This document shows positions 43,374 through 60,857 of a stretch of 64,000 bases of DNA, piece after piece. This stretch comes from Bactericera cockerelli (taxonomy: Eukaryota; Arthropoda; Insecta; Hemiptera; Triozidae). The notes under the pieces were generated by a model. It had not been told where the DNA came from. It saw nothing but the letters and a program-made list of their open reading frames with translations, and ran no database searches. Numbering within the stretch: position 1 is the first letter of the stretch; each line of letters starts with the position of its first letter. Position numbers and translations under genes: made by a program. The stretch covers positions 1,805,284 to 1,869,283 of the forward strand of contig CM044964.1 of assembly GCA_024516035.1 (NCBI GenBank), written 5' to 3'.

Positions 43374-44255
43374 CTATACATAAAGTCTCACCCCACCACC
43401 CGTATCTCGAGAATGGCTGAAAATACAAGAAAACGCAAAAACCTGTATGCCTTAATTTTTAGGGGGATTAATTTTCAGCCAAAATTTTTTTGCCTACACG
43501 GCCCCAGTCAGGCTGGGCATGGACCAACTTTAAAATCTTAAATAGAATGTTATGTCTTGTGGCATATTGTTTTAAAGGTCTCATAAAGAGAAGTTCATTA
43601 CAAAAAAATTCAGTGAGCTACAGCTCACCGTTCTAGAGATACAGGGTCGAACGTCCTGCGTAATATCCATATATTTTGACCTATAACTCGTTAACCGTAA
43701 ATTATAGAAAAATGAAATTTGGTGATAATAACTCCTTATGACAAGCCCTGTCGAAAAAGGTATAACTCGACATACTCTGTTGATATTAGTTTCTGGTCGG
43801 TTTCGTCAGCCAGCCGGACGAACAGTCCGAAAATTTTTAACGAAAAAACAAATCAAGCTTTAACTTGTTCGAAAGTCCTTGCCATAAGGAGTTATTATCA
43901 ACAAATTTAATTTTTCTGGAATTTACGGTCAACGAGTTATAGGTCAAAATATATGGATATTACGCAGGACGTCCGACCCTGTATCTCAAAAACGGTAAGT
44001 TGTAGCTCACTGAAATTTGTTGTAATGAAATTATCTCTATGAGATCTTTAAAACAATATGCCACAAGACATACTATTCTATTTAAGATTTTAAAGTTGGT
44101 CCATGCCCAGCCTGACTGGGGCCCTGTAGGGAAATTTTTTTTGGCTAAAAATTAATCCCCCCAAAAATTAAGGAATACGGGTTTTTGCGTTTTCTTGTAT
44201 TTTCAGCCATTCTTGAGATACGGGGGGTGGGGTGAGACTTTATGTTCACCCTGTA
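43374..44255. mobile_element. Fold-back element FB3
   Basis: Arms of about 380 bp. Left acataaagtctcaccccacc pairs with right ggtggggtgagactttatgt, and further inside tataactcgttaaccgtaaatt pairs with aatttacggtcaacgagttata. The right end has the extra caccctgtata box; on the left the corresponding 9 bp are missing between 'tata' and 'cataaag'. No ORF. Confidence 0.75.
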
Positions 44256-46370: not shown

Positions 46371-46505
46371 TTTTATGTATATAATTATATTAATTATGTC
46401 CCATTATTATACATATAATTAAATAATAATATTTTTTACAATTATTTTTTATACACAATTCTTATACAGAACCAATGTGTAATAGTAGTTATAAATATGG
46501 ATATG

Positions 46506-47590
46506 TCGCGAAAAACGTGCCCATTTTTTTCAAAGCTCCCTGTGCGCGCGGGTGAGTAAGTGTGAGCAATGTGCTGTGCCCCCCCCCCTTTTTTTCCCCC
46601 CTTTTATCACATCCTTTAGGGTATCGATTGGGGGTATTGATTTTATTGATTGGGGTATTGATTTATTGATTGGAGTATTGATTTATTGATTGGGGGTATT
46701 GATTTTATTGATTGGAGTATTGATTTATTGATTTGGTTGGGTGGAAGAGATGGTGATTGGGTTGGGTGGAAGAGATGGTAATTGGGTTGGGTGGAAGAGA
46801 TGGTGATTGGGTTGCGTGGAAAAGATGGTGATTGGGTTGGGTGGAAGAGATGGTGATTGGGTTGTGTGGAAGAGATGGTGATTGGGTTGGGTGGAAAAGA
46901 TGGTGATTGGGTTGGGTGGAAGAGATGGTGATTGGTTTGGGTGGAAGAGATGGTGATTGGGTTGGGTGGAAGAGATGGTGATTGGGTTGGGTGGAAGAGA
47001 TGGTGATTGGGTTGGGTGGAAGAGATTGTGATTGGGTTGGGTGGAAGAGATGGTGATTGGGTTGGGTGGAAGAGATGGTGATTGGGTTGGGTGGAAGAGA
47101 TGGTGATTGGGTTGGGTGGAAGAGATGGTGATTGGGTTGGGTGGAAGAGATGGTGATTGGGTTGGGTGGAAGAGATGGTGATTGGGTTGGGTGGAAGAGA
47201 TGGTGATTGGGTTGGGTGGAAGAGATTGCCTAAAATTTGTATGTACCTATTATTTTCCATTCTAATGATGGTGTTGTCTACTGATTGTTTCTCGTGCGTT
47301 ATGGCGGCAGCGTCGTTGGCGGGTAACGAACTTTTTTCGCACAGGTGGTGAGTTCTTGTGGTGAGGGAAATATCTCTGGTGCAGGTAGGTTTTCGCAATC
47401 ACCGAGGCGTGCGATAACATGTGCGGAAATAAGAGAGGGTGATTTTCCGCGATTTCGTGAGAGTTCCTGCTAATAATCTTGCATGGTTCCCCCTTTTTAA
47501 ACCATATTGTACTTGTGTGAAAATAATTGAAGAAGAGGTTGTTGACTTTTTGTGTGTGTGTGTGAAAATAACTGACAATAGAGAGATGGT
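46506..47590. repeat. Left terminal inverted repeat of the Polinton
   Basis: About 1.08 kb, in three parts. The tip is 46506-46620 with C/T homopolymer runs. Next comes a 20-bp-unit AT minisatellite (46621-46732) and a 25-bp minisatellite (46733-47229). Last is a unique ~360-bp inner part (47230-47590) matching 58886-59248 reversed. The inner identity ends at agagagatggt. Confidence 0.9.
46733..47229. repeat. 25-bp minisatellite in the left TIR (about 20 copies)
   Basis: Unit attgggttgggtggaagagatggtg repeated with few changes. An open frame across it on minus is a repeat artefact (PNPITISSTQ repeats). Confidence 0.95.
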
Positions 47591-47630: not shown

Positions 47631-48815
47631 TTAGAAAATAATGCCAGCCTCCCTTAACTCTTCTTCAATGGAAATAATTTCATTGTTATGAGCAAGATGA
47701 TTACCTGCTGCTTGCGATCTTTTTAAAAGTAAAAGTCTCTCTACCAATTCATTTGGGTTGTCAAAGTATACATATTCTTTGTCTTGATTGGTATCAAACA
47801 TCATTCCTTTTCCATATTGCGATACTTTTGTTGTTATAGGGTCCAGACTTGTGATGTCTATGATATTTTTATAATTACGTTCATCCAATGTACTAATTAT
47901 TTCCTGATTGGGTTGTTTGAGAAACAAAAGTTCCATAAGTCCACGTGTAACTGGATAAACTTTACCATCGATATAAAATTGTTCGGTTGGTGTTTTAGAA
48001 AATTGAATTTCTTTTTTTCCTAGATAATATTTTCCTTGCTTTGATTTTATACCTGTTGCTTTGTCAATTTCAATGGACTCATTTTGTTGTAATTGTTTTA
48101 AAAACTGATCAATCAAAGAGGTCTTATTCACTTTCACAGGTTCGATCTCTTCACTCCATCCACTGGAGGATGCATCAAAAGGTGGTAGTGGAGATGATGA
48201 TGGTGTGGTTGAAAATTCTCTCCTACGTTCCAATAGTTTTCCCTTCTGTAAAGCTTCAGCTGAAGGTTGTGGTGAGTTCGGCATGGAAATACTGAAACGT
48301 TTTGGCTTGGTCTTTTCTCTGAATGGAGACGTGTACCCTGGACTAGGAAAGACCATTTGATTGTATTGTTTCTGCAACAATTTACTATCGAAATTACTAG
48401 GACTACTTTGATATGAGGCACTCGGAAAATTTGATTCGGGCGTTTGAACTGAGGAATCAAAGTTCCAGCTTTCTAGTGGACTTGCATATTCTGTTTCAGG
48501 CGTTCCAGACGGACTCTCGAATTTTTTTAGTAGTGAAGGTAAACGTCTCAGAGAAGATGCTGGTTCTCTTTTGATGGAATCTGACTGTACCATTTTTTTT
48601 TCCTTGATTTTCCGTAAGTAATCAACTTTTTTATCTTTTAGTTGCACAATTTTTGTCAAAGGATCAACTACTGGCTTTAAGAAGTTATCGATACTACTTG
48701 TTTGTTCATCTTGGCCAATTTTAAGGGATAATGTTTTTGCTCGAATTTCTTTCTGTGCGTCACTAATTTTTTTTGCGAGAATTTTCGCTTCACTTAGTTC
48801 TTTCGAAAGACTCAT
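47631..48815 (-). CDS. Polinton-associated protein of unknown function (394 aa)
   Basis: Intact ORF starting MSLSKELSEAKILAKKI. The N-terminal ~60 residues are helical and charged, the middle (about 90-225) is Ser/Pro-rich and disordered, and a compact C-terminal domain (about 255-390) holds a conserved-looking block GKYYLGKKEIQF ... VYPVTRGLMELLFLKQP. Similar C-terminal domains recur in uncharacterised insect proteins linked to Polintons (memory-based, not searched). A TATATAAA box (about 48849-48856 on minus) lies 40 bp before the ATG and overlaps the end of the ATPase gene. The gene ends 40 bp from the left TIR. The role is unknown; a structural or core protein is possible. Confidence 0.75.
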   Translation of the reverse strand: MSLSKELSEAKILAKKISDAQKEIRAKTLSLKIGQDEQTSSIDNFLKPVVDPLTKIVQLKDKKVDYLRKIKEKKMVQSDSIKREPASSLRRLPSLLKKFESPSGTPETEYASPLESWNFDSSVQTPESNFPSASYQSSPSNFDSKLLQKQYNQMVFPSPGYTSPFREKTKPKRFSISMPNSPQPSAEALQKGKLLERRREFSTTPSSSPLPPFDASSSGWSEEIEPVKVNKTSLIDQFLKQLQQNESIEIDKATGIKSKQGKYYLGKKEIQFSKTPTEQFYIDGKVYPVTRGLMELLFLKQPNQEIISTLDERNYKNIIDITSLDPITTKVSQYGKGMMFDTNQDKEYVYFDNPNELVERLLLLKRSQAAGNHLAHNNEIISIEEELREAGIIF

Positions 48816-48847
48816 GTCTAATTAAGCCTCAATTGTTAAGCATTGGG

Positions 48848-49602: not shown

Positions 49603-50441
49603 ATGATAAACAGACGAGGGAAAGGTCTCTTAAATACTTTAATTGATAAATTACCTTTCGAAGTCCACATTCCAACTTATAGATTTTGTGGTAAGTTTTT
49701 TTTTTTTTACTAAACATTATTTTTTCTTCTTCTTCTTCTTCTTCTTTATTTTTACATAGATTATTAAAAAAAAAAGTTAAAATAGTGTGTTTTTTTCAAG
49801 GACCAGGAACAAGATTAGATCAAAGAAAAGATCAAGAAGGAATCAATCCATTGGATTCAGCCTGCAAAGAGCACGATCTCAAGTACGCAGACAAGAAAGC
49901 TAACCGTAAACAAGCGGACTGGGAGTTGGAAAATAAAGCTTGGCAAAGAGTGTTAGCAAAAGATTCAAGGCTCTCGGAAAAAGCAGCTGCCTTGTTTGTC
50001 ACTAACGCTATGAAAGTGAAAAGAAAAATAGGTGCAGGTCTTCGTCGCAAAAAGAAGACAATGATCACTTTTCGAAAACTAGCTAAAGCTGCCTCAGTGG
50101 GAATGAAGTCTGCTGGTGAGAGTGATAATTTCAAGTTGATGAGTAAACATGCATTGATGGCAGCACGTAAAGCTATCCGAGGTAATAAAATAAACAAGAA
50201 AGTACCGAGAATGCTCAGAATACCCAAGACAATGTCAGGTGGATTTTTACCCGCTGCTATACCCATACTTGCTGGTTTAAGTGCTCTTGGATCAATTGTT
50301 GGTGGTGTAGGCGGTATTGCAAAAGCGGTTGCAGATTTCAAGACTGCTAGTTCTTCGGGTGCTGTCACTCCTATTAAAAGTGGACAGGGATTGTACATAA
50401 AACCGTACTCAAATTATTTTAAAGTCTTGTCAAAAAACTAA
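49603..50441 (+). CDS. Phospholipase A2-like protein, spliced (exons 49603-49690 and 49801-50441)
   Basis: Deduced 242 aa. Exon 1 encodes MINRRGKGLLN...YRFC plus one base. The intron (gtaagt at 49691, pyrimidine-rich tract, tttttcaag at 49800) is 110 nt and does not keep the frame, so splicing is needed. Exon 2 continues with the parvovirus-type PLA2 domain: calcium loop CGPGT (29-33), NPLDSACKEHD with the H54-D55 dyad, then helices. A basic stretch (RKIGAGLRRKKKT) follows, and a Gly/Ala-rich hydrophobic segment (GGFLPAAIPILAGLSALGS, about 177-195) resembles the adenovirus pX/mu type segment found in Polinton proteins. Likely a virion protein that disrupts membranes or binds DNA (inference). 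It ends in a -1 frameshift signal. Confidence 0.85.
49691..49800 (+). other. 110-nt spliceosomal intron in the PLA2-like gene
   Basis: Donor G|gtaagt; acceptor preceded by a long tract (ttttttcttcttcttcttct) and ending tttttttcaag. Joining restores the CGPGT calcium-loop motif across the junction. Without splicing, exon 2 has no ATG near its start, only a GTG inside the intron. Confidence 0.85.
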
Positions 50442-50522
50442 ATGATTTGCCTCGAAGAGCATTGACAAATATTGATATTATGAAAAAGGTTCGTGAAATC
50501 AATGTTCCATATTTTCGAGGCA
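50432..50522 (+). promoter_or_regulatory. Putative -1 programmed ribosomal frameshift signal
   Basis: Slippery heptamer A AAA AAC at 50432-50438, in the zero frame of the PLA2-like gene and immediately followed by its TAA. A 9-nt spacer follows (50439-50447), then an 11-bp stem: TGCCTCGAAGA (50448-50458) with TTTTCGAGGCA (50512-50522), one G-U pair, 53-nt loop. A -1 slip enters the protease frame directly. The heptamer is the classical eukaryotic type, as at the MMTV gag-pro junction. Confidence 0.7.
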
Positions 50523-50818
50523 TATATAGTTTGGATCAGCTTCCATCAAGACCAAGAAAAAATGAAGTGATAATTGTTAATCTCGATAGAGCTACAGGAC
50601 CTGGAACTCATTGGACAGCTGTGTTGAAAAAAAATAACTATGCGTTTTATTATGATAGTTTTGGAAACTTGCGTCCACCTGTAGAAATAAGAGCTTATCT
50701 TACTGGCTTTAAACTTTTCTATAATTATGAGCGACATCAACAATATAGATCAGTTAATTGTGGACACTTATGTTTGAAGTATGTTGTACTAAAAACTATT
50801 GAACTATTTAACAAGTAA
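50438..50818 (+). CDS. Adenovirus-type cysteine protease (capsid maturation), probably made by -1 frameshift
   Basis: Adenain-like fold (C5/Ulp1 clan). Numbering from the TTG at 50447: His55 in GTHWTAV, Asp70 in FYYDSFGN, Gln98, and Cys105 in VNCGHLCLKY form the expected catalytic set, with Gln seven residues before Cys. Length ~125 aa is usual for Polinton proteases. The frame is open from 50423, but no ATG occurs before 50480, and the family's N-terminal LTNIDI block lies upstream of that ATG. The natural start is therefore most simply the -1 shift at 50438 from the PLA2-like gene. The protease would cleave capsid and core precursors in assembling particles. Confidence 0.88.
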   Translation, partial: LNDLPRRALTNIDIMKKVREINVPYFRGIYSLDQLPSRPRKNEVIIVNLDRATGPGTHWTAVLKKNNYAFYYDSFGNLRPPVEIRAYLTGFKLFYNYERHQQYRSVNCGHLCLKYVVLKTIELFNK

Positions 50819-50839: not shown

Positions 50840-51520
50840 ATGTCCAGCAGAATTTTTCACTTGACTTCTAATCAATCGGAAATTGTGTGTTCAATATTTC
50901 CTCCTTTAAAAGTTCCACCAGACGCAGTGATTGGTTTGACTCAATTTCAAACTTACAATAGTATTCCAAATATTGATAAGACAAACAATGTTTTTAAATA
51001 TCAGGATGATAATAACAAGTGGAATATCATTGAAATGGACGAAGGAACGTACGAATTAGTCGACATTGAAAATTATTTAAAATCCAGGTTGGGCGATAAT
51101 GCAATAAATATTAAACCCAATGTAAACACACTAAAATGTAATTTCTGGTGCAAATATAATGTTGATTTCAAGGAGCCTTTACTTGCCGATATGCTTGGAC
51201 TGCCCAAAGAAATTTACCCTGCACATACTGTTTTGATGTCAACTAAAACCTTGGAAATTTCAAAAATAAATTCTATACAAATTGACGTTAACATAGTTAG
51301 TGGTTCCTACCAAGACGGTGTGCCGAGTAATTGTTTGTACAAATATTTCCTCAACGTACCACCTGGTTTCCGGATCACAGAAGTTCCCAACAATGTTATA
51401 TATTTACCACTCAATACGGATGAAATTGACAGATTGATTGTAAAGCTTGTTGACGAAAGACATAATTTAATAGACTTTAGAGGTGAAGAAATATCGTTGG
51501 AATTACATCTGAAAATATGA
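50840..51520 (+). CDS. Polinton minor capsid (penton-type) protein
   Basis: 226 aa. It matches the Polinton minor capsid family by recall: an N-terminal strand set MSSRIFHLTSNQSEIV, then VIGLTQFQTYNSIPNI, TYELVDIENYL, NTLKCNFWCKYNVDF, a conserved VNIVSGSYQDG, and the end VPNNVIYLPLN ... LIDFRGEEISLELHLKI. The family is a single jelly-roll protein at the vertices of icosahedral capsids. Lies 21 nt after the protease stop with no TATA box of its own, so it is probably a downstream cistron. Its stop overlaps the next start as ATGA (51517-51520). Confidence 0.85.
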   Translation: MSSRIFHLTSNQSEIVCSIFPPLKVPPDAVIGLTQFQTYNSIPNIDKTNNVFKYQDDNNKWNIIEMDEGTYELVDIENYLKSRLGDNAINIKPNVNTLKCNFWCKYNVDFKEPLLADMLGLPKEIYPAHTVLMSTKTLEISKINSIQIDVNIVSGSYQDGVPSNCLYKYFLNVPPGFRITEVPNNVIYLPLNTDEIDRLIVKLVDERHNLIDFRGEEISLELHLKI

Positions 51521-51699
51521 TTGTGATGAAACGAATGAAAAGCAATAAAAAGAGGGCACTCGCCTTCCACAATATCATTCCAATAAGTGACATACAAGTG
51601 AAAAGTAATAAGAAAAAGAAGAAAAGAAAATTAAAGAAGCTAACACGAAAAAGTGTGAAAATATTGCAAAGTTTAGGCTATAGTGTAAAACAAAAATGA
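51517..51699 (+). CDS. Small, very basic protein between the capsid genes (60 aa)
   Basis: MIVMKRMKSNKKRALAFHN start, a Lys/Arg-rich centre, and an end RKSVKILQSLGYSVKQK. Its ATG overlaps the minor capsid stop (ATGA), and its stop overlaps the major capsid ATG (ATGA, 51696-51699), so the frame is fixed by its neighbours and unlikely to be accidental. Charge suggests DNA or RNA binding, such as a condensing core peptide, or it serves to carry ribosomes to the major capsid ATG. I do not recognise a named family with certainty. Confidence 0.65.
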   Translation: MIVMKRMKSNKKRALAFHNIIPISDIQVKSNKKKKKRKLKKLTRKSVKILQSLGYSVKQK

Positions 51700-55618: not shown

Positions 55619-56557
55619 CTATCTCTTTATTAGCGAAGAAGTAGGGACCCACTGATTTTCTTCAGGTCCAAAGCCTAAATACTTTACTAAAGCTTTACTG
55701 CCTTTACGTTGGAGTACCTTTTCAACAAGATAAACATCTGGGTATGAGGTCTTGAGTAGCTCTTGTTCATAGAAACAACCAAGTATTGGTTTCCCATTTA
55801 AATCTTCCAGATGATATACCCTAGGAAAAGTACTACCCACTTTGACCACACGAAATACCTCATAACTCCAGTTGGCCTCATATCCTTTTTGAAACAAATG
55901 TTTCACTTTGGAAATACGTACAAGATCACCTAGTTTAAATTTACTAGATCTAGCTAAGACTTGCTTGGGTTTATTTAATCGAAGAGCTACGAGACTTTGA
56001 TTTTTAAGGTTCACATCTGCAGGGGCCATACCAATGGATCTATGTTTTGTAGCATTGTAGGTAGACAAAAGTGTTGGTAAAATTTCTATCCATTTGTACG
56101 AGCCAAGTAAATTGAATTCAATCCACATTTTAGTTTTCAAGGTTCGGTTAAATCGCTCTACAATAGCAGCTTTCATGGGGGAAAATGTGCTGTAATGGTT
56201 GATTTTATATGAACTCATAAGTTCGCGAAACGGACGGCCAAAAAATTCTTTACCAGCATCCGTTTGCAAGTGGGTTGGGATCTGGTTTCGCGCAAGTTTA
56301 GAAAGAATAAATTTTTCCATTTGCCTGGCTACTTCAATACTAGTTTTATTCTTCAACGGTGCACAGTAAGCATATTTGGAGAAGCAATTGATGCAGGTAA
56401 GTATATATTTATATCCATTATTCTCACTAGCATAAGGAATCATTTCCACAAGATCAGCTTGAAACAGATCATGTACATTGCGCAGTAGAGTTCTCCGACG
56501 AGGAAATAGTTTTCTCGCGGGACGATGAAGCTCTAAAACGAGATCACGCTTTGACAT
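55619..56557 (-). CDS. Polinton integrase (retroviral type) with C-terminal chromodomain
   Basis: 312 aa. The DDE core reads D35 in FQADLVEM, D100 in LQTDAGKEFFGR and E134 in KAAIVERFNRTLK, matching rve integrases and the Polinton subtype. After the core comes an SH3-like region (LGDLVRISKVKHLFQKGYEANWS) and then a chromodomain at about 273-311 (DVYLVEKVLQ ... VKYLGFGPEENQWVP). Its ATG (56555-56557) overlaps the preceding gene's stop as TAATG, suggesting reinitiation rather than a separate promoter. A complete HHCC zinc finger is not seen before residue 30, so the N-terminus is shorter than in many copies. It inserts the element via its inverted repeats. Confidence 0.93.
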   Translation of the reverse strand: MSKRDLVLELHRPARKLFPRRRTLLRNVHDLFQADLVEMIPYASENNGYKYILTCINCFSKYAYCAPLKNKTSIEVARQMEKFILSKLARNQIPTHLQTDAGKEFFGRPFRELMSSYKINHYSTFSPMKAAIVERFNRTLKTKMWIEFNLLGSYKWIEILPTLLSTYNATKHRSIGMAPADVNLKNQSLVALRLNKPKQVLARSSKFKLGDLVRISKVKHLFQKGYEANWSYEVFRVVKVGSTFPRVYHLEDLNGKPILGCFYEQELLKTSYPDVYLVEKVLQRKGSKALVKYLGFGPEENQWVPTSSLIKR

Positions 56558-57885
56558 TACTCTATTGGAATGGGGAGACGAGTTGTTTTTTCTTCAACTT
56601 CTCCAATGGTGGTGGTGGTTTTCTTCGACGTTTTTGATTTTACAAGGGGTTCCAATTTTTCATACAAGAGAGGCTCAAAAATGAGATTTTTAATTTTCAA
56701 ACTTAAACCAGCTTCCAACTCATCAACTATATTCACCTTGATATAGTTTTCAATTGCTTCATTCGAAATATGAATTTGCTCTTTTATAGTGATTATTTCC
56801 ACGTTCAGCTTCTCCATTATTTCTTTGCGAAGTTGAGCCACGACTTTTTCTAAAATGTCATCTGTAATTTCACTACCTTCACTCCAACATGATAGAAATG
56901 CAGACAATATGTTCTCGGTATTGATTCGGCTGAGTAAATTATAACGTAATTGTTGTAGGAACTTCTTTTTGTTCGACTCTTCAAGAAGGAAAGCGTTTAA
57001 ATTTTGCGAAAACATCTGCGTAAGTTCACTTCGAATTTTCACTTTCTCTTCCTCAACTTTTTTTTTAAAATCAGTTTCATGAGTTGACAGCAATGAAGTT
57101 AACATATTTGTCACTTCAGTTTTCAATTTTTTCTCTTTTTCACTGACAATCTCCTTGAAATCAGACTCGTGATTTTTTTTGTAATTGTAAAATGTTGTTG
57201 CGTAGAGCGCTTTTTTGTCCAAAGCATTGAGATCTCGTCTCAAAGTAGCAGTCACATGAACATTTTGTTTATAATGTTGCTCCACTGTATTTTTTAATTC
57301 CAAAAGAGGAAAGAACTTATTATCCAACTCATGTATCCTGCTGGAAAGATCTTCTTTCACTTTGTTCACGTCCTCATTCATTTTTTGTTCACTTTCTCCG
57401 GCCTCAACAATGTAATCATCGAACGCCTTTTTTAGCACAAATTTGGAATTATTATTCTCATTGTCCTGTTTTCTGTTTTGTTTCAATTCCTCTATAGACA
57501 AATTCACATTATTCACATTTTTATCATTGTTTGTTTTATACTCGGCAAAAGATTTTTGTTCCAAATATGTATTATTAGCCACACGTGTTGGTACAAAATT
57601 ATTCTTCTGGACGTGATTAGATAAATTGTCAAAAGTTTTTCTTTCTACAAAGTATGAGGACAACTTTTGAACATGTGATTGACGAGGAAATTCTCTCATG
57701 AATTTTTTTACTTCCTTTTCAGTTTGACTTTCAATTTCATCATTTTTAGGCTTGATCTTCTCTTCAGATTGTTGCGGCGGCGGCGGCGGCGGCGGTGGTT
57801 CTTGAATGCGGTGCCTTTTCAGTGCTCGTCTTAAGACATGGTGGAGCTCGCTCTCACCAAAATAGTTTACCGAATGATTTTTCAT
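56557..57885 (-). CDS. Long coiled-coil protein of unknown function (442 aa)
   Basis: Starts MKNHSVNYFGESELHHVLRR, then a run of eight prolines (encoded by a GCC-type microsatellite), and then mostly charged helices with heptad patterns from about residue 60 to 410 (e.g. KEKKLKTEVTNML and KVEEEKVKIRSELTQMF). Ends TTTIGEVEEKTTRLPIPIE. No catalytic motif. I do not recognise a family; a structural, tail-fibre-like or scaffold role is possible only by shape. A TATAAATA box lies 37 bp before the ATG, overlapping the upstream stop. Its own stop overlaps the integrase start (TAATG), so the two are probably on one mRNA. Confidence 0.7.
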   Translation of the reverse strand: MKNHSVNYFGESELHHVLRRALKRHRIQEPPPPPPPPQQSEEKIKPKNDEIESQTEKEVKKFMREFPRQSHVQKLSSYFVERKTFDNLSNHVQKNNFVPTRVANNTYLEQKSFAEYKTNNDKNVNNVNLSIEELKQNRKQDNENNNSKFVLKKAFDDYIVEAGESEQKMNEDVNKVKEDLSSRIHELDNKFFPLLELKNTVEQHYKQNVHVTATLRRDLNALDKKALYATTFYNYKKNHESDFKEIVSEKEKKLKTEVTNMLTSLLSTHETDFKKKVEEEKVKIRSELTQMFSQNLNAFLLEESNKKKFLQQLRYNLLSRINTENILSAFLSCWSEGSEITDDILEKVVAQLRKEIMEKLNVEIITIKEQIHISNEAIENYIKVNIVDELEAGLSLKIKNLIFEPLLYEKLEPLVKSKTSKKTTTTIGEVEEKTTRLPIPIE

Positions 57886-57914
57886 AACTAATTGTTTGCA
57901 ATTCAGAAATTAGT

Positions 57915-58885: not shown

Positions 58886-60238
58886 ACCATCTCTCTATGA
58901 CCAGCTGTTATTTTCACACACACACACAAAAAGTCAACAACCTCTTCTTCAATTATTTTCACACAAGTACAATATGGTTTAAAAAGGGGGAACCATGCAA
59001 GATTATTAGCAGTAACTCTCACGAAATCGCGGAAAATCACCCTCTCTTATTTCCGCACATGTTATCGCACGCCTCGGTGATTGCGAAAACCTACCTGCAC
59101 CAGAGATATTTCCCTCACCACAAGAACTCACCACCTGTGCGAAAAAAGTTCGTTACCCGCCAACGACGCTGCCGCCATAACGCACGAGAAACAATCAGTA
59201 GACAACACCATCATTAGAATGGAAAATAATACATACAAATTTTAGGCAATCTCTTCCACCCAACCCAATCACCATCTCTTCCACCCAACCCAATCACCAT
59301 CTCTTCCACCCAACCCAAAATGGAAAATAATACATACAAATTTTGGGCAATCTCTTCCACCCAACCCAATCACCATATCTTCCACCCAATCCAAAATGGA
59401 AAATAATACATACAAATTTTGGGCAATCTCTTCCACCCAACCCAATCACCATCTCTTCCACCCAACCCAATCAATAAATCAATACCCCAATCAATAAATC
59501 AATACCCCAATCACCATCTCTTCCACCCAACCCAATCACCATCTCTTCCACCCAACCCAATCACCATCTCTTCCACCCAACCCAAAATGGAAAATAATAC
59601 ATACAAATTTTGGGCAATCTCTTCCACCCAACCCAATCACCATCTCTTCCACCCAACCCAAAATGGAAAATAATACATACAAATTTTGGGCAATCTCTTC
59701 CACCCAACCCAATCACCATCTCTTCCACCCAACCCAATCACCATCTCTTCCACCCAACCCAATCACCATCTTTTCCACCCAACCCAATCACCATCTCTTC
59801 CACCCAACCCAATCAATAAATCAATACCCCAATCAATAAATCAATACCCCAATCAATACACCAAACAATAAATCAATACACCAATCAATAAATCAATACA
59901 CCAATCAATAAATCAATACCCCAATCAATAAATCAATACCCCAATCAATACCCCAATCAATAAATCAATACCCCAATCAATACACCAATACCCCAATCAA
60001 TACCCCAATCAATAAATCAATACCCCAATCAATAAATCAATACCCCAATCAATACACCAATCAATAAATCAATACCCCAATCAATAAATCAATACCCCAA
60101 TCAATACCCCTAATCGATACCCTAAAGGATGTAATAAAAGGGGGGGGGGGGAAAGGGGGGGGGGGCACAGCACATTGCTCACACTTACTCACCCACGCGC
60201 ACACGGAGCTTTGAAAAAAATGGGCATGTGTTTCGCGA
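58886..60238. repeat. Right terminal inverted repeat of the Polinton
   Basis: Inverted copy of 46506-47590, but 1.35 kb. The unique inner part is 58886-59248. The 25-bp minisatellite occupies 59249-59815, here interspersed with a 38-bp module (aatggaaaataatacatac...) repeated about five times. Then come caataaatcaatacccc units (59808-60110) and a G-rich tip. The left-right length difference is confined to the minisatellites. Confidence 0.9.
60138..60167 (+). repeat. G-tract near the Polinton tip
   Basis: Two runs of about 12 G separated by AAA. The left TIR has the matching C runs at 46580-46610. Capable in principle of G-quadruplex formation. Confidence 0.7.
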
Positions 60239-60857
60239 TACCCCCATATATATACCTACTTGTAATTATTAATAAATTAGTTCTCCATCTACTAAACTCC
60301 ATCTACGGATTTTCTTTAAATGTACTTCTTGTTATAAATCTAGCTGTAAAATACATCTATAAGATTTTGTATTCAGAAAAGGAACTTCTTAATAAAAAGT
60401 ATTAGTAAGTTTTGTACTGATATTACCTAACAATATTACTTCTGATATTTTTTTAATTTTAGAAATCGGAAGTATCGTGTTCGTTTATATAAATAAAACA
60501 AATATTTTTTGCTCTGATTTCAATTTTTTTCTAAATGTATTATAGAAACACTGGTCACTTTTTTTAACTGAAAATGGCTGTCGCCTGTTCCAATGACTTC
60601 TTGAGACACGTCTTTGGAAACTCTATTTTTTATTATTGTATTATTTCTTACGTAATTCATTCTACAAACGTTATCATTTTACTAACACATAATAGTATGA
60701 AACCATTAATGTCTCTGTTTACAGTAAAGAGTTTGTTCTACAAGTTTGAACTGTGTTTTTTTTTTTTTTTTTTTTTTAATTATTAATTATTGCGACAACC
60801 TGTACTTGGGTTATTACAGCAAACATTCAAACTCACTCGTAACAAGAAGGGTGACGT

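Follow-up and report, generated by a model that had tools for sequence, protein, structure and literature searches.

How does a virus-like DNA element express a protease whose reading frame is conserved and lacks a start codon of its own? This question is raised by an element at about 46.5 to 60.3 kb of the window, the stretch of 64,000 nucleotides of Bactericera cockerelli DNA analyzed here. Pfam matches to a double jelly-roll capsid protein (PF21738, E 3.9e-90), a Pox_A32 ATPase (E 3e-11) and an rve integrase (E 5.8e-10) identify it as a Polinton/adintovirus, and inverted repeats at 46484-47572 and 58907-60260 (exact ends approximate) are in keeping with the terminal repeats of such elements. 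An earlier note on this DNA had interpreted the region upstream of the protease as a -1 ribosomal frameshift cassette that links a phospholipase A2 (PLA2)-like protein to the Polinton protease, and the copies, frames and conservation described below support that interpretation.

Several other features of the element and its surroundings were observed. The arms of the inverted repeats themselves repeat at 25-nt steps, which suggests arrays of ∼25-nt tandem units. No match to the protein-primed polymerase PolB was found among the 14 open reading frames (ORFs) that were put to Pfam, and the element may lack or have replaced PolB; two long ORFs on the minus strand (47631-48821 and 56557-57909) had no Pfam match. 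Just 5' of the capsid gene, a small lysine-rich ORF (51517-51699), whose ATG overlaps the preceding stop (ATGA), possibly encodes a basic core peptide. Outside the element, positions 43378-44245 form a 425-nt inverted repeat that is 87% complementary, with 18 nt between the arms.

A slippery heptamer at the end of the PLA2X gene

The protease frame follows a gene, here called PLA2X, whose product resembles phospholipase A2 and the adenoviral pX (mu) core protein (Table 1). A search for PLA2X homologs returned 506 at E 0.01 or better; among the 120 listed, most carry a precomputed PF08398 assignment, the closest relatives show 85% and 75% identity, and the closest named one (P0125, 67%) is from the psyllid Cacopsylla melanoneura. 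In the window subfamily (L001 and L002) the CGPG motif of PLA2X is interrupted, and it is contiguous in six of the eight loci tested; the 110-nt intron is thus an apparent gain (or a loss elsewhere) in a Polinton gene.

Table 1. Features of the PLA2X-protease junction, in window coordinates
Feature	Position	Strand	Basis
PLA2X exon 1, ATG through base 1 of the CGPG-motif Gly codon	49603..49690	+	By eye; contiguous in intronless L003, L005, L062 and L069
Intron inside PLA2X, 110 nt, GTAAGT...TTTTTTTCAAG (GT-AG)	49691..49800	+	Read in sequence; splicing inferred
PLA2X exon 2 with stop; similarity to Phospholip_A2_4 and Adeno_PX (mu core)	49801..50441	+	Pfam E 3.4e-4 and 4e-4, neither reaching the curated cut-off
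Last protease-frame stop (TAA) 5' of the conserved block	50420..50422	+	Read in sequence; locus survey
Slippery heptamer A AAA AAC	50432..50438	+	Read in sequence; kept in 40/40 near copies
Adenain-like cysteine protease frame entered by -1 shift, with stop	50438..50818	+	Profile match, AF2 model, Foldseek, dN/dS
Zero-frame PLA2X stop TAA	50439..50441	+	Read in sequence
9-nt spacer, containing ATG 50442-50444 (outside the protease frame)	50439..50447	+	Read in sequence
Conserved N-terminal block LPRRALTNIDI, 5' of every in-frame ATG	50447..50479	+	Alignments; locus survey
Stem 5' arm, TGCCTCGAAGA, pairs with 50512-50522	50448..50458	+	Folding; 11/11 pairs in window clade and family A, 9/11 in B
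First in-frame protease ATG in window subfamily	50480..50482	+	CTG in main subfamily, TTA in L003
Stem 3' arm, TTTTCGAGGCA	50512..50522	+	Folding; copy comparison

Direct reading of the codons at 50430-50441 (T50430 C50431 A50432-A50437 C50438 T50439 A A) gave TCA AAA AAC TAA. This confirmed the earlier claim that A AAA AAC stands in the exact zero-frame X XXY YYZ register, as in a frameshift signal, with the stop immediately 3' of it. The 9-nt spacer and the 11-bp stem described in the earlier note were found as well, and a slip of one base backward does enter the protease frame, with the conserved block of the latter lying 5' of its first ATG. The -1 frame is open from 50423 to 50818, with its own stop just 5', and reads KKL over A AAA AAC T. 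Under a loose definition and on both strands, the window contains 2096 slippery-type heptamers, only a single one of which lies within 10 codons of the end of an ORF of 100 codons or more and leads into a -1 frame that stays open for 100 codons or more. The motif AAAAAAC alone has 25 and 38 chance occurrences on the two strands, which counts against our preferred reading.

The protease frame is conserved and lacks a start codon

The product of the -1 frame is related in sequence and fold to the adenovirus endoprotease adenain (C5), as judged by a profile match to 1avp (E 1.9e-5) and by an AF2 model (pLDDT 94.4) whose best Foldseek match was 1nln (TMq 0.70). Its H63 and C113 are invariant in 21 aligned protease sequences. 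Pfam C5 itself matches 6 of the 13 members of alignment A3, P0001 being without a match. The N-terminal block, which precedes every in-frame ATG, forms part of the confidently predicted adenain fold. The first ATG of the window copy is replaced by CTG, TTA or TTG in the other subfamilies of the window clade. For the main subfamily and L003, no in-frame Met is reached until codon 50 of the stop-to-stop frame, already within the catalytic domain.

Sequence comparison indicates that this frame, without a start of its own, is under purifying selection, as expected downstream of a frameshift signal. dN/dS ranged from 0.12 to 0.54 across the computable family pairs, and 12 of 36 family pairs were saturated at synonymous sites, so the shared arrangement is old and has been maintained. 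The differences between the window and main subfamilies make the switch of frame visible at the junction: upstream, 18 of 21 fall at position 3 of frame 0, and downstream, 22 of 44 fall at position 3 of the -1 frame. In the PLA2X tail, the same two subfamilies differ by 15 synonymous codon changes versus 4 others.

Copies of the junction in the same genome

We searched the 565-Mb genome for further copies, taking the repeat-search counts as lower bounds. The DNA search yielded at least 40 scored near copies (97 candidates), and the PLA2X protein search yielded at least 131 matches from several divergent families. The genome contains eight further subfamilies besides that of the window. Of at least 121 protease matches, 110 adjoin a PLA2X match and 11 do not. 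The expectation that heptamer and frame should be conserved among these copies was borne out: all 40 near copies keep the heptamer, the stop, the spacer and the start of the stem, and the protease lies in the -1 frame relative to PLA2X in 101 of the 110 adjoining matches, in frame in 7 and in the +1 frame in 2.

Ninety loci were fetched, two of which repeat others (L069 repeats L040, and L090 repeats L011), leaving 88 copies; two more (L073 and L074) lack a protease, so that 86 distinct copies have a junction. An A-run of at least six is present in 85 of these 86, the exception being L084 (A5C), whose PLA2X is broken across three frames. A6C was found in 66 of the 81 distinct copies classified. 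The junctions of the window, the main subfamily (E), L003, C and D read A6C followed by TAA, that of A reads A6C TAT TAG and that of B reads A9C TGA, and the A-runs of F and G extend to 12 to 13 (14 in L077). The automated locus reader accepted a locus only if the block and an FRG motif shared a frame and were preceded by KK or KN; it passed 83 loci (81 copies), a set that by construction could show no counterexample without KK or KN; L084 was omitted for that reason. The reader also missed L029, L034, L080 and L083 as well as L073 and L074. L029, L034 and L083 keep the heptamer and contain indels, and L080 has an A13 run and an indel.

The exceptions to the -1 relation are few. Three of the seven in-frame matches (L061, L085 and L077) result from a longer A-run, L029, L034 and L083 are those with indels, and the seventh is C2:27821382 (open frame 276, as in L077). 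Both +1 matches (L072 and L030) carry an indel within PLA2X. The PLA2X frame is incomplete upstream in L085 and L077. The extra A that puts PLA2X and the protease in one frame in L061, L085 and L077 could be real or could be a homopolymer assembly error.

It is hardly credible that the window copy simply represents a decayed gene whose protease frame lost one base. Met at LPRR is a frequent start among relatives, and the ATG at 50442 is one frame off from the start of some of them; the genome's own copies nevertheless speak against a deletion artefact, since 101 of 110 matches share the arrangement, some of the family pairs have reached saturation at synonymous sites, and dN/dS is well below 1.

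Two further observations concern the near copies themselves. L005 and L008-L023, 17 of the 30 near copies fetched, are identical across the 569-nt junction region, which suggests that the main subfamily expanded rapidly and recently. A 43-nt identical run across the site was considered as evidence and rejected, such a run being not unusual at that divergence (P 0.26).

Relatives in other species

The comparison with other species was made at the protein level. Among the listed PLA2X relatives (the best 120 of 506), 75 have KN 0 to 2 residues from the C-terminus. The residue before this terminal KN can have an A-ending codon in 74 of 75 cases, compared to 127 of 155 for internal KN, and the residue or stop after it can start with T in 65 of 75, compared to 20 of 155. 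Of the 118 PLA2X tails located via an anchor motif, 32 lack KN, and most of these 32 show lysine runs. One family member, P0231, is named as the PLA2X of a Megastigmus wasp adintovirus; this homologous PLA2 plus X protein has KKKN and KKK away from its C-terminus and no terminal KN, unlike the PLA2X of the window. Scans of viral contigs (IMG/VR) gave 9 pattern matches for the protease sequence, 42 for its alignment and 206 for that of PLA2X, and no confirmed relative.

On the protease side, KK just before the block was found in 16 of 21 N-extended proteases from a single-sequence search (KKL in 12). A profile search gave 31 of 34 (KKL in 24), a figure biased by a profile built mostly from KK-bearing extended sequences. 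Eight of 56 N-terminally extended proteases have no KK. Met is the first residue of 197 of 204 protease entries, many of them starting at or beside the block, although proteins cannot tell whether an ATG stands behind an annotated Met. Two jgi entries start with Val at the block (P0290 and P0323) and others with Met (P0019 and P0031); this source also writes V and L starts, and P0019 and P0031 probably have a true ATG at the block. Some relatives in other species may thus have an AUG start for the protease. Two fusions were also seen: in P0277 the two proteins are fused in frame, and a single additional A would account for the difference between its junction and the PLA2X tail of P0240; P0207, an annotated protein of Lucilia cuprina, is a PLA2X-protease fusion that skips the junction, presumably via a predicted intron.

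Routes into the protease frame

At 80 of the 83 loci read, the protease frame opens 15 to 96 nt 5' of the LPxRxLTN block with no ATG in the stretch, so an AUG start cannot enter the block in frame there; at the remaining three (L061, L077 and L085) the longer A-run makes the junction in-frame. Related copies combining an in-frame protease ATG with loss of the heptamer, which the earlier note had named as evidence against a frameshift, were therefore not seen in this genome: none of the 80 non-fused loci has an in-frame ATG before the block, and none of the 40 near copies lacks the heptamer. We regard it as quite improbable that translation starts internally or resumes beyond the PLA2X stop, whether at an AUG or at a near-cognate codon. 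An ATG does follow the stop directly at 50442, and Met at or directly before the block is common among relatives, in some lineages of which re-initiation may operate; in the window, however, that ATG is in the zero frame and not in the protease frame.

The other route named in the earlier note was a splice joining an upstream exon to the protease frame. At 46 of the 83 loci (44 distinct copies), no AG is present between the last in-frame stop and the block, and a canonical acceptor thus cannot deliver the block in frame; at the other 37 an AG is present or the frames are fused, and to these loci the argument does not extend. The GT-AG intron in the PLA2X of the window copy and the junction-skipping fusion of Lucilia cuprina speak for this route. 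Against it, splicing would leave the KN at PLA2X C-termini unexplained, and the conserved block belongs to a confidently predicted fold. We consider splicing into the protease highly improbable.

A predicted downstream hairpin in the window clade

Slippage at the heptamer is the reading that these results favor, and in the window clade a structure is predicted 9 nt downstream, within the 5 to 9 nt expected of a stimulatory structure. The two arms of the stem form 11 of 11 pairs, including one G-U. The region 50432-50560 folds at -36 kcal/mol, compared to -19.3 (sd 3.7) for shuffled sequences (z -4.49; 1 of 200 shuffles was as good). When the 102 nt downstream were compared to 500 synonymous recodings that kept the amino acids, z was -4.41 and one recoding was equally good. 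This position also ranked lowest (z -5.23) when 130 overlapping coding stretches from the element were scanned with 100 recodings each. With one arm slid by 1 to 6 nt, there were never more than seven pairs, and register 0 alone was best in the seven representatives tested.

The earlier note had also expected stem pairing and compensatory changes to be conserved among copies, and this held in part. The window clade and family A retain the complete set of 11 pairs. In B, 9 of 11 are kept, with two double changes (pair 2 from G-C to A-U, with G-U in A, and pair 8 from A-U to G-C, with G-U in D) and two other pairs broken. The expectation failed in F and G, where three pairs remain, as counted at fixed offsets despite blocks of differing length. 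The z-scores against synonymous recoding are -4.41 for the window, -4.19 for D, -2.51 for E, -2.32 for C and -2.31 for L003; a weak -1.49 for A; and -0.05 for B, -0.29 for F and +0.72 for G, in which the hairpin does not go beyond coding constraint. Only in the window clade is the hairpin clearly stronger than coding constraint would give, and a universal hairpin was rejected on the basis of B, F and G. That longer A-runs go with the lack of a significant hairpin (B, F and G) is suggestive only, the window, E, L003, C and D being close kin.

These data also bear on transcriptional slippage, in which RNA polymerase would add an A within the A-run so that a minority of mRNAs fuse PLA2X and the protease. 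The same products would be expected, especially from long A-runs, such as the A9 to A14 runs of B, F and G, where no significant hairpin accompanies them, and copies with an extra A, as well as one relative (P0277 versus P0240), are indeed fused in frame. Against this, 66 of the 81 classified copies have only A6C, placed in the ribosomal XXXYYYZ register, and in the window clade the hairpin 9 nt downstream exceeds coding constraint; polymerase slippage is not known to require such a structure. Overall, we consider transcriptional slippage unlikely, though more plausible on long A-runs.

Discussion

The heptamer and its register, the relation of the two frames, the lack of an AUG and often of an AG, the selection on the protease and the conservation across subfamilies lead us to conclude that -1 ribosomal frameshifting probably makes a Gag-Pro-like PLA2X-protease fusion. 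Of the ribosomes that reach the end of PLA2X, a minority would shift back by one base on A AAA AAC and read on in the protease frame, a step that the hairpin would assist in the window clade; most would terminate and yield PLA2X alone. That the ribosome rather than the polymerase slips, at what rate and for what purpose, we infer from the sequence pattern and from analogy. With a low fusion ratio, few copies of the protease would be made, each attached to a core protein that has a mu/pX-like segment, and the protease would be carried into the particle as in retroviral Gag-Pro; the mu/pX-like segment, itself a weak Pfam match, suggests that inside the particle the fusion would be located beside the genome.

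In retroviral gag-pro, an XXXYYYZ heptamer at the end of the structural gene is followed by a short spacer and an RNA structure, with the protease in the -1 frame. The Polinton junction has the same heptamer type, spacer, predicted downstream structure and -1 protease. In contrast to retroviruses, the Polinton is a double-stranded DNA virus-like element, its protease is an adenain-type cysteine protease and the partner is a PLA2 plus pX/mu-like protein. Adenain in adenovirus is a free protein.

A review of recoding describes the eukaryotic DNA viruses known to use frameshifting as relatively few and reports that there is no hint of recoding in adenovirus (PMC8310308). The nearest description that we found is a preprint on adintoviruses in which KnotInFrame predicted hypothetical -1 shifts in Penton and a similar relationship for Hexon-Adenain (Hexain) fusions (PMC11071296). 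These predictions are likewise -1, with sites in Penton and Hexon; the portion of the preprint at hand contains no PLA2X-protease shift and no comparative test. In Spodoptera frugiperda, Mavericks 1 and 2 are listed with a PLA2 domain-containing CAP directly before an adenovirus-like PRO (PMC5803895), the same gene neighbors as here, but in the available part of that paper CAP and PRO are treated as separate ORFs and the description does not include a frameshift at their junction. One other polinton paper mentions ribosomal frameshifting, and in its accessible text the term concerns a tombus-like virus. A PLA2X-protease frameshift was not found in the accessible parts of the open-licence literature searched, and within that literature the present case would be a known recoding mechanism in a new place.

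We lean, somewhat tentatively, toward the view that the -1 frameshift between PLA2X and adenain is an ancestral and general expression strategy of insect adintoviruses/Polintons. Lineages would have exchanged the hairpin for a lengthened A-run, and the gain of one A would have hard-wired the fusion in some copies. If the frameshift is real, it would explain the missing start codon of the Polinton protease, and it would mean that relatives of adenoviruses evolved the Gag-Pro solution to protease dosing and packaging. It would be the equivalent of Gag-Pro in a DNA virus, with the maturation protease joined to a core protein associated with DNA, and would add to the evidence for the selection of Polintons as particle-forming viruses.
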